Shown piece after piece: positions 1,281 to 52,412 of a stretch of 64,000 nucleotides of DNA. This stretch comes from an uncultured Pseudomonadota bacterium. GTDB lineage: Bacteria; Pseudomonadota; Gammaproteobacteria; CAJXQU01. The notes beneath the pieces were generated by a model that was given only the letters and a program-made list of their open reading frames with translations, ran no database searches and was not told the origin of the DNA. The stretch's first letter is position 1. Each line of letters opens with the position of its first letter. The stretch is taken from the NCBI GenBank assembly GCA_913058255.1, contig CAJXQU010000010.1, positions 1-64,000 on the forward strand, in the 5' to 3' direction. A program made the position numbers and the translations under genes.

Positions 1281-2309
1281 GTTCCGATACTCCACCATCG
1301 GAATGTTTGATACTCCACCATCGTGCGTGAAGAAGGCTATCGATTGGTTCCGATACCCCACCATCGGAATGTTTGATACTCTGCAAATATTGCGGCTGAT
1401 GTTTTAGTTAGCGTTCCGATACCCCACCATCGGAATGTTTGATACTCTTTTTCACCACCGCACCACTCTCCGGTGTGTGGGTTCCGATACCCCACCATCG
1501 GAATGTTTGATACTCTGATAGCGGTGAATCTTAGCCGCCACACTAGGTTCCGATACCCCACCATCGGAATGTTTGATACTCTCCCCTACGAGGATGGAGT
1601 TCCGCGATAGCAGTTCCGATACCCCACCATCGGAATGTTTGATACTCTATAAGACAAGTTTAGCTAAAGCCCCGCTTCGGTTCCGATACCCCACCATCGG
1701 AATGTTTGATACTCTAATTCAACGGGAGCCAAGCCATCAATCGCGGTTCCGATACCCCACCATCGGAATGTTTGATACTCTATTAACTCTTTCAACATTA
1801 GCTGATCTTCTGTTCCGATACCCCACCATCGGAATGTTTGATACTCTTTTAACCGCTGCTGATGCAGACACGCCGCCGTTCCGATACCCCACCATCGGAA
1901 TGTTTGATACTCTTATTGTATGATAATTGACGCTGTAGCGAGCGTTCCGATACCCCACCATCGGAATGTTTGATACTCTATCATTTTGGTCACATGGAGC
2001 AAAAGAAGAGTTCCGATACCCCACCATCGGAATGTTTGATACTCTTCAATGTACAACTTACTGTCGATTGCTTACGTTCCGATACCCCACCATCGGAATG
2101 TTTGATACTCTGGAATAACCCACTAGGATGGCACCGGATACGTTCCGATACCCCACCATCGGAATGTTTGATACTCTCTTGTTTTGTTAGTGATAAAGAT
2201 CCAGTTGGTTCCGATACCCCACCATCGGAATGTTTGATACTCTGGTTGGAACTTGATCACCGATATTAATGGAGTTCCGATACCCCACCATCGGAATGTT
2301 TGATACTCT
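1281..2309 (+). CRISPR. Type II-C CRISPR array, 16 repeats / 15 spacers
   Basis: A 36-nt repeat starts with GTTCCGATACCCCACC and ends with GTTTGATACTCT. Repeats start at 1281, 1347, 1413, 1481, 1547, 1613, 1680, 1746, 1812, 1878, 1944, 2010, 2076, 2142, 2208 and 2274. Spacers are 30 nt, except spacer 3 (32) and spacer 6 (31). All repeats read as identical except the first (1281-1316), which differs at position 11 (T for C) and at the last base (C for T). The repeat contains a 7-bp inverted repeat, TTCCGAT..ATCGGAA, and ends in TGATACTCT, which resembles an extended -10. The candidate tracrRNA pairs with the plus-strand sense of the repeat, so pre-crRNA is expected on the plus strand, towards the cas genes. 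The protein ORFs listed across this stretch are translated repeats. Confidence 0.98.
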
Positions 2310-2315
2310 AGGAGG

Positions 2316-2348
2316 CCTGTAGGTTATTGATATACCTGCAGGTTTTTT
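2316..2348 (+). terminator. Terminator after the CRISPR array
   Basis: The stem CCTGTAGGT / ACCTGCAGG (one G-T pair), with a 9-nt loop, is followed by TTTTTT. It begins 6 nt after the last repeat, and its T-run overlaps the cas2 stop codon. The T-run is on the plus strand only, which supports plus-strand array transcription converging on the cas operon. Confidence 0.75.
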
Positions 2349-2655: not shown

Positions 2656-3611
2656 TATACGCCAACCATTTGAGGCCATAAATCCCCCTGTTTTTCAGGT
2701 AAAGAGAGCTTTAGTTTTTTAAGAGAAATATTTTCCTTTTTTGCTTTTTTTAGTATGCGACAATAGCTGCTGATCGTTTCATTTATGGCGCTAGGTAATC
2801 GGTAGCTTTGTTTGTTCATACTCAAACTTTGTGTAATGAATTGTAGTAATTGTTGTCGTGCAAGAGCATTAAACTCAGAGGCATAGTCATGTTGGAGAAC
2901 CCAAGTTTCTACAGTAAAGCGATAAGCTTCGATGAAGTCATCTGCTAGGTTAAATGGGTTGTCTTTATTGTGATGCCCTATGCCTAAAGCGGGTTGTAGT
3001 CCTGCTATTGATAGCTCTCTTGCGATCATTGAACGAAGGATGGCATAACCAAAATTTAAACGTGCGTTGAGGGTGTCTGTTGCACCTTGTTTTTGTCTTT
3101 TTTTAACATCATTATCGATATCTTCAAATAAATATTTCCAATAATGTTTTGCGCCTTGTCCCTCTAGGTTTTGTGGGTCCGCGGGCAATACTTGATCCGC
3201 TAGACGTTCTAATCTGAGAGCTCCTTTTTTACCCGTAAACCTGAGTGTTTGTGCTTGAGTTTTTAGGCGTGTTTGAATTAACTGTTGCCAGAGCTGTTCA
3301 TTGATCGGGCTGTGTTGTAGATGAAACTGTTCTCTGAGCCTTTCAAGTTGACGTGAGTGGCCATACCAAGGGAGAGATAGGCTTTGTGGGTGATGGTATT
3401 GATCGGTTGTGATAACCGCTGATTTAGATTTTCCCAATGCCTGCAATACCCCTTGACTGATCGTAATTACGGGGTGATGTAAACATAAGACTGCAATATC
3501 ATTAGCAAGAATGAATGTATCTTTTTGTTCAGGTCTTGCTAACTTTACCCTCCCTGTGTCTATGGATAAATAGCAAGGATTTTCGATTAATATAACTCTT
3601 TGTTCAGACAT
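2655..3611 (-). CDS. cas1: CRISPR-associated endonuclease/integrase Cas1
   Basis: Metal-dependent integrase that, with Cas2, inserts new spacers. The 318 residues fit type II Cas1. Near the middle are the conserved LNFGYAILRSMIARELSIAGLQPALGIGHHNK block, holding the catalytic His, and DDFIEAYR, holding the acidic metal ligands. The ATG overlaps the cas9 stop (ATGTCTGA, 8 nt) and its own stop overlaps cas2. No csn2 or cas4 is nearby, which with the three-gene order indicates subtype II-C. Confidence 0.96.
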   Translation of the reverse strand: MSEQRVILIENPCYLSIDTGRVKLARPEQKDTFILANDIAVLCLHHPVITISQGVLQALGKSKSAVITTDQYHHPQSLSLPWYGHSRQLERLREQFHLQHSPINEQLWQQLIQTRLKTQAQTLRFTGKKGALRLERLADQVLPADPQNLEGQGAKHYWKYLFEDIDNDVKKRQKQGATDTLNARLNFGYAILRSMIARELSIAGLQPALGIGHHNKDNPFNLADDFIEAYRFTVETWVLQHDYASEFNALARQQLLQFITQSLSMNKQSYRLPSAINETISSYCRILKKAKKENISLKKLKLSLPEKQGDLWPQMVGV

Positions 3612-6600
3612 GATCTGAGACGTGAATAAAGTTACTCAGTTTTTTTACACTTGCTCGTAAGAGCACTCCTGAATTTTCTTTTTTATCCAATTCACTGACT
3701 GGTCTTGTTTCAACGATAGGTATGAGAAATAAAATTCCTCCAGAAGCTGACTTGATTTGTTTTACGACATAAAGACGTTCGTTACTTTTGTTTAAAAGAG
3801 TATCTCCTTTATAAAATCTAATCGTATTTTCAGCTAATGAGCTTAAACCTCGGGCAGCTTGTGGCATTGTAACTAGCCGTGAGTCGGTGACTTTTGTTTT
3901 CTCTTCATTTAATGTGATCTCAAGATAGGCATTACCTGCATCTTGTAGGTATTTTTTATGCTCCTTATTTTTTCCAAAGGTGATTAGCTCTGCTGTCTCT
4001 ATGCTGTAGTTCCGATTACATTTTACTTTCCTAATGTAAACAGGTTTTTCTTTAGTGCTGTAAAGAGGATGCTCTATTCTCTGTAGCGTTTCCTGAACAT
4101 TATCAAAATCACTTTTTATGGCTTCAGATACAATTTTTCTAATGCTTGGGCTTATAATGTTTTGTAAGTTTTTAAGCGTTTTTTCTAAAGATTTTTCATC
4201 AATTAGTTTGAGTAAATCCATACGCAGAGCAAGGTAGGTTTTATTGTCATTTTCGTCAGTTGTTATGCTGTAAGCGGTATCTTTATAAAAGCCACCAGAG
4301 GAATATCTATCTGGTTTATGGCTGATGTTGCAGTCACGAATGACTCTGATCGCCTGATCTCGTAAAGTTTTCACTGGAGGCTCTATAGACCACTTAGGTT
4401 CTGGTTTTTCTTGCTCTAGTCGATAGTGTGAGTCTTGTCGATAAAATTCTTCTAATTTGAACTGCTCGACTTTGTATTGCTTAGCCATATTCTGATATAG
4501 CTTTCTTGATACCATAGAGATGGTTATGGCATCGATTAAGTGATGACGATGATCACAGCGTTTCTCTAAGCTACGTTTAATTCGTTTTGTTCCTGCGGAA
4601 AGGTCTCTTCCTTCCCATTGAGATTTACCGATTCGATAGTCTTCGATTGAGATGCTTTTGCCTTCTGTATCAAGCACCGGGTAGCCTTCTTCGATTCGCA
4701 CATCAGGAATTACAGTGTCTAAATGCCAGATATGTCGCAGGCGTGCGGTTAATTGGCCACGAGAGACAAAAACATCATGACAGATGTTACGCATCCATTG
4801 GGCTACTGCTTTAGATATCCAGGAGGTCTCTTGAAACTGTCTATCACTAAAGTCATCTATAGTCGTGTCATCTTCGTAGTTATCGATCAACAGTAGCTGT
4901 GATTTTCTATAAAGTTTACGTTGTTTGAAGTGCAGGGCGAGTTGCTCTACAGCCCCCCAGCGTTGCGAATTTTTTTCAAAGGCTTGCCGTGGTGTTTGAT
5001 TACCTTTGAGTTCGTTGCAGGTTTTGTGTGATAAAACTATTTCACTGGTTTTTAAGCCAACTTGGGTAAGCGAGCGTGGGAGAATATGTTCGTAATGTGT
5101 TTCTCCGCCATGTAATGCTTGGTCGACTTCGATCTTATTTGTGCAGTAGGGACAGCGTGAAACTTGTTCTTGCCAGAGAAGATAACGTCTGATCAGGTTG
5201 TTGGTAGGCACCTTGTTTAGTTTCTCTATTTCTTTTTTTGCTGTATCTCGTGCTTTTTTATTTAGGCCATTGCGTTTTTCTATCTCATTACGTTGTTGGA
5301 CACTCTTCCCCATATCTCGTGTTAGTTCAACGACTATTTGTTCAGGTTCCCCATGTTCATCGATACACTGATTAACTAGTTTTTTAATTTGACGAAGGGC
5401 AACATCAACAACATCATTCCCTGTTTCTGGTGTTACGTTTAAGCGTTGAGTTGATTTCGTTATTTGTTCGAGCTTGCTGAAGCATTGTTCGATAGCGGCT
5501 TCTTCGTCTATACGTGGTAGGTCTGTTCCCTGTGGCGCTTCTTGCCAGTAAGGTGCAATAAACCATTCATTGAGTTGATTAAGTGCTTTTATAGAATAAG
5601 CTGCACGGCCAGCATCGAAGCCCATGCTGGTTAAACGATTAAATTTTTCGTGTTCGCGTAAAAGATTAATGAAATTGATAACTTCATCTGCAAATTGTCT
5701 CATCTTGGCTTTTTTGCCTTTAGCTGCTCCTTTGATCTGTGTATGCCATTGATCATCATCAAGTTGTTCGGGTGAGCCCAGATCAGAAAGAAAGTTGAGG
5801 GTGCTGACCTGATGATTCGATGAAAGTGTTTGCCACTCATTTAACAGACCAAGCTGATCAAAGTTTTTTAAAGTTCTATTACCCTGTAATTCTTCTCGTC
5901 CCCCTTTAGATTGTCTGTCCATATTTAAGTTCTTTGCTGGATAGCTAATCTCTAAATCATCAAGTGCCATATAAAACTTCTTAAAACTAAATTTCCCTTC
6001 TTTTGTGAGGTTAACGGGATCATTGAGAAGTATGCGTAAGCAAGATTTTTGTTCGACGGATAAGGGCTGTGAAGTTTTTCGCATACCCCAACGTAGATCT
6101 GAAATTTGTTTCTCGATACGAAAGGTTTGAAAAGAAGGCTGTGCTCTTGCGGTGCGTGGCAGATTGTTTATTAGACTGCAATTACCCACCATGGCAGCGG
6201 GTGACTTTAACGGTCGTTGAAAAAATATCGCTTCAAAGAAGTTTGTTTTTACAGGTTTCCCGAGATTTTTCTCATTTAGAACAGGATGAAATTTAGCTTG
6301 GGTTTCCCAAATAAGATCAAACTCGTGTTCAAGCATGTCTCGCGTAATGTAGAGATTATAATGTTCAGGATTGATGTCTATCAGTTCTTTTCTTTTTTTA
6401 GTACTAAGGATTTCTTGTACTTTCAGCTTGGTGGGTAAGCCTCTTTGTAAACGGTGATATAAATATTGTCCAACGGTTTGTAGGCCATTGATAGCCATAA
6501 GTTGAGTTATTTGTTCAACACCAGCTTTGACTTCTCCGTCGCTGGCCTTAACTTTGAACTGGCCTTTATAACCTCTTCGTTTTCCTAACTTTAAGAATAT

Positions 6601-6954
6601 TCGAAACAGATCTTCTAGAGAAATCTCATGCTCGATAGCTTCTGCACGCAAACGAGGTAGGTTCTGACCATTATCGGGAGAGATCTTTCTAGCATCGAGT
6701 TTGAGTAGTGGTGCAAGGTGGGCGATACGTCGGAGTCGACTTGCTTTTCGATCGAACTGTTTTCGTTTTTGACGCGCATCACGCCTAGCGGCTTTTTTAG
6801 GTGTTCGTCCGGTCTGGCTTTTTTCCGTAGGTTCATCAAATGTTCGAACAGCATGCCAGATAATTTCAGATGGTTGGTCATTTGAATCTAGTGAAAAAGC
6901 GACAGCACCGATAGAAGCGGTACCAAGATCGAGCCCTAACCTGTATTTCGTCAT
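3604..6954 (-). CDS. cas9: Type II-C CRISPR nuclease Cas9
   Basis: RNA-guided DNA endonuclease of 1116-1118 residues, in the size range of compact II-C enzymes. Visible in order: RuvC-I with catalytic Asp (YRLGLDLGTASIG, about residue 11); Arg-rich bridge helix (RTPKKAARRDARQKRK, about 50-80); RuvC-II (QIVVELTRDMG, about 540); HNH domain with a CPYC zinc-ribbon-like start (about 604) and HYEHILPRS (about 622); RuvC-III (DHRHHLIDAITISM, about 807); and a C-terminal PAM-interacting region of about 300 residues. All catalytic residues are present. Two ATGs are possible: GAGGGG is 2 nt from the first (6960) and 8 nt from the second (6954), so I prefer the second. First of the overlapping cas9-cas1-cas2 operon. 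Confidence 0.97.
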   Translation of the reverse strand: MTKYRLGLDLGTASIGAVAFSLDSNDQPSEIIWHAVRTFDEPTEKSQTGRTPKKAARRDARQKRKQFDRKASRLRRIAHLAPLLKLDARKISPDNGQNLPRLRAEAIEHEISLEDLFRIFLKLGKRRGYKGQFKVKASDGEVKAGVEQITQLMAINGLQTVGQYLYHRLQRGLPTKLKVQEILSTKKRKELIDINPEHYNLYITRDMLEHEFDLIWETQAKFHPVLNEKNLGKPVKTNFFEAIFFQRPLKSPAAMVGNCSLINNLPRTARAQPSFQTFRIEKQISDLRWGMRKTSQPLSVEQKSCLRILLNDPVNLTKEGKFSFKKFYMALDDLEISYPAKNLNMDRQSKGGREELQGNRTLKNFDQLGLLNEWQTLSSNHQVSTLNFLSDLGSPEQLDDDQWHTQIKGAAKGKKAKMRQFADEVINFINLLREHEKFNRLTSMGFDAGRAAYSIKALNQLNEWFIAPYWQEAPQGTDLPRIDEEAAIEQCFSKLEQITKSTQRLNVTPETGNDVVDVALRQIKKLVNQCIDEHGEPEQIVVELTRDMGKSVQQRNEIEKRNGLNKKARDTAKKEIEKLNKVPTNNLIRRYLLWQEQVSRCPYCTNKIEVDQALHGGETHYEHILPRSLTQVGLKTSEIVLSHKTCNELKGNQTPRQAFEKNSQRWGAVEQLALHFKQRKLYRKSQLLLIDNYEDDTTIDDFSDRQFQETSWISKAVAQWMRNICHDVFVSRGQLTARLRHIWHLDTVIPDVRIEEGYPVLDTEGKSISIEDYRIGKSQWEGRDLSAGTKRIKRSLEKRCDHRHHLIDAITISMVSRKLYQNMAKQYKVEQFKLEEFYRQDSHYRLEQEKPEPKWSIEPPVKTLRDQAIRVIRDCNISHKPDRYSSGGFYKDTAYSITTDENDNKTYLALRMDLLKLIDEKSLEKTLKNLQNIISPSIRKIVSEAIKSDFDNVQETLQRIEHPLYSTKEKPVYIRKVKCNRNYSIETAELITFGKNKEHKKYLQDAGNAYLEITLNEEKTKVTDSRLVTMPQAARGLSSLAENTIRFYKGDTLLNKSNERLYVVKQIKSASGGILFLIPIVETRPVSELDKKENSGVLLRASVKKLSNFIHVSDHV

Positions 6955-6970
6955 AGACATTTCCCCTCAG

Positions 6971-7138
6971 TCAGTCATTGTTGAATATATCGATAATAGT
7001 GCTTATTAGAGTAAGAATAAACTCTGTTTCTTCAAAACACATAGCACTGATGATCACGAGTGTTAAACAGATGATAATCATGATGCAAACCCATCCGAGC
7101 ATTATTTTGTTTCCACAGCTTTCATAGCTTATCTTCAT
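6971..7138 (-). CDS. Small predicted membrane protein upstream of cas9 (unrecognised)
   Basis: Not in the ORF track because it is only 55 codons. It reads MKISYESCGNKIMLGWVCIM, then a strongly hydrophobic run (IIICLTLVIISAM), then FEETEFILTLIS and a hydrophobic end, NN D stop. One or two membrane segments are predicted by eye. The stop lies 10-16 nt before the two possible cas9 starts, same strand, so it sits where a first operon gene would. No clear ribosome-binding site is seen before its ATG, which lowers confidence. Function unknown; it could be a leader peptide, an accessory membrane peptide, or chance coding in the cas9 leader. Confidence 0.4.
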   Translation of the reverse strand: MKISYESCGNKIMLGWVCIMIIICLTLVIISAMCFEETEFILTLISTIIDIFNND

Positions 7139-7277
7139 ATAGGTCTAAATATATTTATATTTTTGGGTTGGAGATGTTTTTGTTGTTGTGATAATATATC
7201 TGAGAACTCAAATATTATCAATATCTTACTAGTTGTAAACTTTTTGGGTTGTTCTGATACCTCTTTATCAAGCTATC

Positions 7278-7306
7278 TTGATACTAATATAAAAGTGTTC
7301 TACACT
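7278..7306 (+). promoter_or_regulatory. Candidate tracrRNA promoter
   Basis: TTGATA (7278-7283) is 17 bp from TACACT (7301-7306), giving 5/6 and 4/6 matches to the sigma-70 consensus. A start about 7 nt later falls exactly at the first base of the anti-repeat. Confidence 0.6.
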
Positions 7307-7312
7307 TTTAAA

Positions 7313-7400
7313 CGTATCAAATATTCCGATGGTGGGGACTATCGGCAACAAGTTCTAATAGAACACCGATACGAAAAGGCAACTTCGGTTGCCTTTTTTT
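7313..7400 (+). ncRNA. tracrRNA of the type II-C system
   Basis: Trans-activating RNA that pairs with crRNA repeats for Cas9 loading. The first ~36 nt (GTATCAAATATTCCGATGGTGGGG...) are almost the reverse complement of the array repeat: the ten outer bases pair with one G-U wobble, fourteen central bases pair perfectly, a 2-nt AC bulge follows, then six pairs, a one-base C bulge and three pairs. Downstream come a short hairpin GTTC-TAATA-GAAC (7352-7364), nexus-like, and the terminator AAAAGGCAAC-TTCG-GTTGCCTTTT followed by T residues. About 88 nt in total. It is divergent from cas9, and its strand fixes the array transcription direction as plus. Confidence 0.88.
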
Positions 7401-52032: not shown

Positions 52033-52061
52033 ATTTGGTGGAGACGGCGGGAATCGAACCC
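52033..52061. repeat. Right attachment repeat (within ssrA 3' end)
   Basis: The 29-bp copy ATTTGGTGGAGACGGCGGGA.. covering the CCA end and the T-arm of the tmRNA; identical to 45614-45642. Confidence 0.95.
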
Positions 52062-52412
52062 GCGTCCGCAAATCCTCTGCCTTTGGTTCTACATGCTTAG
52101 CCGACTCTTTTAATTTAACTGGCCACTACCCGAACGGCAGGATGCGTGTACAGCGGTTCCGGTAAAAGTTTAGAGAATCCACGCCGGACGCATTTCATCA
52201 CGATCTTATGAGAGTCGACGCCTGAGTGTTCCGAAGAACCTGGACGCATAAGCACGGCTCCAGTCAGACGGCAATAAACCGGTTCTTAAGCGGCTAGTGC
52301 GTAGTTGTCGTCGTTGGCAACTAAAAGTTTTGCATATTGGATTTACGAGGCTATGTGCATCCTCGGCATGCCCCTCAGGTTTTGTAACCCGCGTCGAAGC
52401 CAGGTCGTCCCC
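52036..52412 (-). ncRNA. ssrA: Transfer-messenger RNA (tmRNA)
   Basis: 377 nt. 5' end GGGGACGACCTGGCTTCGAC and 3' end GGGTTCGATTCCCGCC..CCACCA form the tRNA-like domain. The tag frame at 52318-52286 reads ANDDNYALAA then TAA, one residue from the E. coli tag. Rescues stalled ribosomes with SmpB, encoded just upstream. Its 3' end is the island attachment site and stays intact. Confidence 0.98.
52286..52318 (-). other. tmRNA proteolysis-tag reading frame
   Basis: GCC AAC GAC GAC AAC TAC GCA CTA GCC GCT TAA encodes ANDDNYALAA, ending in the LAA degron recognised by ClpXP. Confidence 0.95.

Follow-up and report, generated by a model that had tools for sequence, protein, structure and literature searches.

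A candidate long-form tracrRNA that may guide Cas9 to its own operon leader in a type II-C CRISPR-Cas9 locus

The closest described counterpart of the RNA considered here is tracr-L, the long form of the trans-activating CRISPR (clustered regularly interspaced short palindromic repeats) RNA (tracrRNA) of Streptococcus pyogenes, reportedly the subject of Workman et al. (2021). The present analysis concerns a 64,000-nucleotide (nt) stretch of DNA from an uncultured gammaproteobacterium (contig CAJXQU010000010.1, hereafter the window), in which the tracrRNA gene of a type II-C CRISPR-Cas9 locus may likewise produce a long form that guides Cas9. The tracr-L of S. pyogenes (type II-A) guides Cas9 through a short match to its own promoter and represses it (PMC8616872; PMC8730458; PMC11417352), the match being given as 11 nt (PMC8616872) or 9 base pairs (bp) (PMC8730458), and tracr-L is stated not to occur in subtypes other than II-A (PMC8616872). 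Autoregulation of this kind is how II-A systems keep Cas9 low and avoid autoimmunity; the literature searched, in which the S. pyogenes work is known through later papers, yielded no description of a long tracrRNA in II-C. As with tracr-L, the tracrRNA of the window adjoins the cas operon, an upstream extension together with the anti-repeat would make up a single guide, and a short match to the cas promoter or leader (9-11 nt there, 10 nt here) would be too short for cleavage; unlike that of tracr-L, the locus described here is of subtype II-C, is without csn2 and bears unrelated sequences. A second group of relevant RNAs is formed by the small CRISPR-Cas-associated RNAs (scaRNAs), which are predicted with degenerate repeats in some II-A and II-C loci (PMC6199352). 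These predicted RNAs, the scaRNA of Francisella novicida (II-B) and that of Neisseria meningitidis (PMC13431127) share with the window a degenerate repeat outside the array, able to pair with the tracrRNA and to redirect Cas9 to an endogenous target, as is predicted here. However, the degenerate repeat of the window (hereafter the psi-repeat) is placed in cis, immediately 5' of the tracrRNA, and the adjoining guide matches the cas9 leader. Finally, a unit resembling a single-guide RNA has been predicted in Listeria monocytogenes SLCC2428 (PMC6199352), where two segments homologous to the repeat would fold together within a single transcript 5' of the cas genes, an arrangement predicted for the window as well, although that locus is type II-A and the present one II-C.

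The short form of the tracrRNA is almost certainly encoded at 7313-7400 on the plus strand. Its anti-repeat is predicted to pair with nearly the full length of the 36-nt array repeat GTTCCGATACCCCACCATCGGAATGTTTGATACTCT (-54.4 kcal/mol), interrupted by an A/ACT internal loop and a single bulged C; the perfect central block of the initial annotation is 15 Watson-Crick pairs long (24 pairs counting one G-U) instead of the 14 given there. The same annotation would have been overturned by an anti-repeat of better fit at another place in the genome, and a search of the 2.78-Mb assembly (96% complete), allowing up to 3 mismatches, returned 17 occurrences of the 24-nt core, namely the 16 array repeats and a single inverted copy, the anti-repeat itself, with no better candidate in the assembly. 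Downstream of the anti-repeat, a nexus-type hairpin was recovered in the predicted fold and a terminator with a UUCG loop by an independent scan. For the 90-nt RNA the predicted folding energy is -32.7 kcal/mol (z = -6.1 against shuffles). The promoter proposed for this form scores 9 of 12, which is modest alone; its position, with a start at the first anti-repeat base, agrees with the promoter scan and with several relatives, in which promoter-like hexamers precede the anti-repeat by a comparable distance (judged by eye). The assignment of the CRISPR RNAs (crRNAs) to the plus strand likewise accords with the tools and the relatives. A search of Rfam returned no CRISPR RNA family match. The first reading of this RNA was thus sound as far as it went, and incomplete in having overlooked, directly upstream, the psi-repeat and its candidate guide to the cas9 leader.

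The tracrRNA is supported beyond one genome, as the same type lies beside cas9 in six distant genomes (G072, G254, G496, G527, G908 and G923), located by searching with Cas9 and with a pattern of the anti-repeat, with both the anti-repeat core and the nexus pairing kept. In G496, G908 and G923 the 27-nt core CCGATGGTGGGGACTATCGGCAACAAG is unchanged, in G072 and G527 it differs by one base and in G254 it carries a small insertion, and the nexus hairpin varies in sequence while retaining its self-complementarity. These ordinary II-C tracrRNAs share with that of the window the anti-repeat core, a CAACAAG-type junction, the nexus hairpin and the terminator. Their loci, in contrast, are compact, without a degenerate repeat and with no space for a long form: each of the six has, next to the tracrRNA, DNA that translates on the opposite strand to a Cas9 N-terminus beginning ~30-60 nt from the anti-repeat (the exact cas9 start codons of G072, G254 and G923 being uncertain and the G527 copy a contig fragment), whereas the corresponding distance in the window is 353 nt. 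In G072 (loci L003 and L007), cas9 is interrupted by an internal stop (TGA), and one leftover repeat and the tracrRNA are preserved; this locus is probably decaying.

The extra intergenic DNA between cas9 and the tracrRNA of the window contains the psi-repeat, which lies upstream of the anti-repeat on the same strand, in single-guide order and across a gap of 27 nt. An end-to-end alignment to the array repeat as good as that of the psi-repeat was obtained in 12 of 2000 shuffles. Because the tracrRNA promoter has its -35 box inside the 3' part of the psi-repeat, the 5' part was also tested alone, and 11 of 13 positions match the array repeat (0 of 5000 shuffles), both differences being such that pairing with the anti-repeat is retained as G-U. 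The predicted duplex between psi-repeat and anti-repeat (-23.0 kcal/mol) was reached by 2 of 2000 shuffles, and the joint hairpin was better than all 500 shuffles of psi-repeat plus linker. The full predicted fold has a single-guide layout, with a repeat-like arm followed by a linker hairpin, the anti-repeat, the nexus and the terminator. An upstream, same-strand, repeat-like segment able to fold on the anti-repeat is one of the features by which tracr-L is recognized, another being a guide of 9-11 nt, 5' of that segment, that matches the cas promoter or leader, here over 10 nt.

This candidate guide, TTTTTGGGTT, has one other copy in the window, an exact match situated between the predicted cas9 promoter and the cas9 start. 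It is the sole recurring 10-mer of the intergenic region, and its end coincides with the repeat boundary at 7250. Such a guide match arose in 3 of 5000 shuffles of the region, while 18 of 5000 gave a match of at least 8 nt; as background, a 10-mer recurs within 280 nt at a rate of ~0.1%. Neither these probabilities nor those for the psi-repeat are free of choice, because the psi-repeat was spotted by eye and the guide match afterwards. Further 5', guide and target agree only at chance level, in keeping with a guide that would direct binding and not cutting. A local duplication as the origin of the repeated 10-mer was rejected because identity ends after 11 nt. The pairing partner of the guide would be the cas9 non-template strand; in CRISPR interference, Cas9 bound in that orientation is the most effective block to RNA polymerase.

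A model can accordingly be put forward for discussion, by which the short tracrRNA would pair with crRNAs as usual, while a longer transcript of the same gene, starting upstream of 7241, would allow the psi-repeat to fold back on the anti-repeat and so form a natural single-guide RNA. The guide may then lead Cas9 to its match in the leader of the cas9 operon, where ten matched bases would permit binding and not cutting, such that abundant Cas9 could block transcription of cas9-cas1-cas2 in a negative feedback. Reading from the sequence, we consider it probable that the long form is a Cas9 autoregulator in this II-C locus. By its anatomy it would work like tracr-L; it is not filed within that known family, because the locus is II-C and tracr-L is II-A. 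We lean slightly toward the view that self-repression of Cas9 guided by a long tracrRNA arose independently in a type II-C system, within an intergenic insert absent from the distant relatives, and, if true, a II-C case with unrelated sequences would point to convergent evolution of the same circuit. The model makes point predictions, namely the 10-nt guide, its target and a protospacer adjacent motif (PAM) that would accept GGAGATGT, at the target, while rejecting GTTCTGAT, at the psi-repeat, and GTTCCGAT, at the array repeat.

Several observations weigh against this model. Among real DNA, 9 of 740 pieces of 300 nt align as well as the psi-repeat region, and 48 of 1858 40-mers pair with the anti-repeat as well; the psi-repeat also serves, in its 3' half, as a -35 box; and the guide lies in an AT-rich tract (30% GC) and matches over only 10 nt. 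No second genome with the psi-repeat and guide was found. For the long form the promoter scan yielded nothing clear; the nearest plus-strand site, a weak candidate at 7134-7161, would add ~80 nt 5' of the psi-repeat. For a reading of the PAM, no spacer targets were found in phages or plasmids, and pieces of spacers tried in viral contigs yielded no protospacer. The 16-nt hits that were obtained extended to no more than 23 of 30 matches and appear to be due to chance.

It is possible, though unlikely, that only the short tracrRNA is functional, the psi-repeat being left over from an old array or from the parent repeat of the anti-repeat, and the 10-mer match a product of chance. The extra DNA is indeed seen in this genome only, the six relatives managing with their shorter spacing; 10 nt is short for AT-rich DNA, the gap between psi-repeat and anti-repeat resembles a spacer, and tracrRNAs are thought to derive from duplicated repeats (PMC8730458). 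Against this, the guide match stops exactly at the repeat boundary, with its target in the cas9 leader (the 3 in 5000 above), and the changes in the 5' half of the psi-repeat preserve pairing with the anti-repeat. We regard it as quite improbable that the psi-repeat is instead the source of an independent scaRNA, similar to a crRNA, which would pair with the tracrRNA in trans and guide Cas9 to cas9 or other genes, as in F. novicida. The predicted duplex would serve as well in trans, and scaRNAs are predicted in some type II-C loci (PMC6199352); nevertheless, a joint transcript is simpler, since the psi-repeat is upstream on the same strand and no terminator was scanned between it and the anti-repeat. 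That the extra 300 bp mainly supply cas9 with its own promoter and a small leader open reading frame (ORF), the repeat-like stretch being kept solely to carry a -35 box, is hardly credible, for although its TTGATA is the -35 of the tracrRNA promoter and a 55-residue ORF does precede cas9, the best-matching part of the psi-repeat is its 5' half, which the promoter does not include (0 of 5000).

The proposed autoregulator would operate in a locus that is a type II-C system, with RuvC and HNH domains in Cas9, ~36-nt repeats with ~30-nt spacers, and an operon of cas9-cas1-cas2 alone, neither csn2 nor cas4 adjoining (Table 1). The locus looks complete, as the initial annotation had proposed, because the array, cas9, cas1 and cas2 are intact and a tracrRNA is present; the first array repeat (1281) is degenerate. 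Its Cas9 is 39% identical to the intact Cas9 of G496. Searches for closer Cas9 relatives found none in viral contigs, plasmids or two congeneric genomes, and genome contigs gave one match at 25%. The 55-residue ORF had no significant family match in Pfam or PHROGs, and the compact relatives have no space for a counterpart.

Table 1. Features of the CRISPR-Cas9 locus, in window coordinates (aa, amino acids).
Feature	Position	Strand	Basis or remark
CRISPR array	1281..2309	+	16 repeats x 36 nt, 15 spacers x 30-32 nt
cas2, 110 aa	2347..2679	-	TIGR01573, PF09827
cas1, type II, 318 aa	2655..3611	-	TIGR03639 E=1.5e-66
cas9, 1118 aa, type II-C layout, RuvC + HNH motifs	3604..6960	-	TIGR01865 E=2.7e-122; PF18541, PF18470, PF13395
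55-aa ORF, one hydrophobic stretch, directly upstream of cas9	6971..7138	-	ORF call; putative coding
Candidate target TTTTTGGGTT; 3' flank GGAGATGT, would-be PAM side	7160..7169	+	exact 10-mer copy
Predicted cas9 promoter TTGATA-17-TATATT, 10/12	7193..7221	-	consensus match only
Candidate guide (seed) of long-form tracrRNA, TTTTTGGGTT	7241..7250	+	directly 5' of degenerate repeat
Degenerate (psi) repeat GTTCTGATACCTCTTTATCAAGCTATCTTGATACT	7251..7285	+	similar to array repeat end to end, complementary to anti-repeat
Short-form tracrRNA promoter TTGATA-17-TACACT	7278..7306	+	scan; -35 inside degenerate repeat
tracrRNA anti-repeat	7313..7352	+	near full-length pairing with array repeat
tracrRNA nexus hairpin	7352..7366	+	fold and relatives
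Intrinsic terminator, UUCG loop, tracrRNA end	7373..7398	+	independent scan

Some minor observations concern the array and its surroundings. Directly after the last repeat, a hairpin followed by a T-run (2310-2348, plus strand) is terminator-like for plus-strand transcription of the array, and the array of G496 is trailed by a similar hairpin and T-run. The 3' end of the repeat, TTTGATACTCT (2274-2309 and other repeats), resembles an extended -10 box, like that of the promoters embedded in the repeats of Neisseria II-C arrays. In compact relatives (L019, ~1480-1520; L020, ~220-260), a similar -10-like motif, directed toward cas9, is present on the strand antisense to the anti-repeat, and cas9 might there be read from inside the tracrRNA gene. 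The ORFs flanking the locus encode a PPOX flavoprotein and a pyrroloquinoline quinone (PQQ)-type dehydrogenase, the latter judged from its own sequence with no profile scan, and a transfer-messenger RNA gene (RF00023) lies at 52036-52412 of the window on the minus strand.
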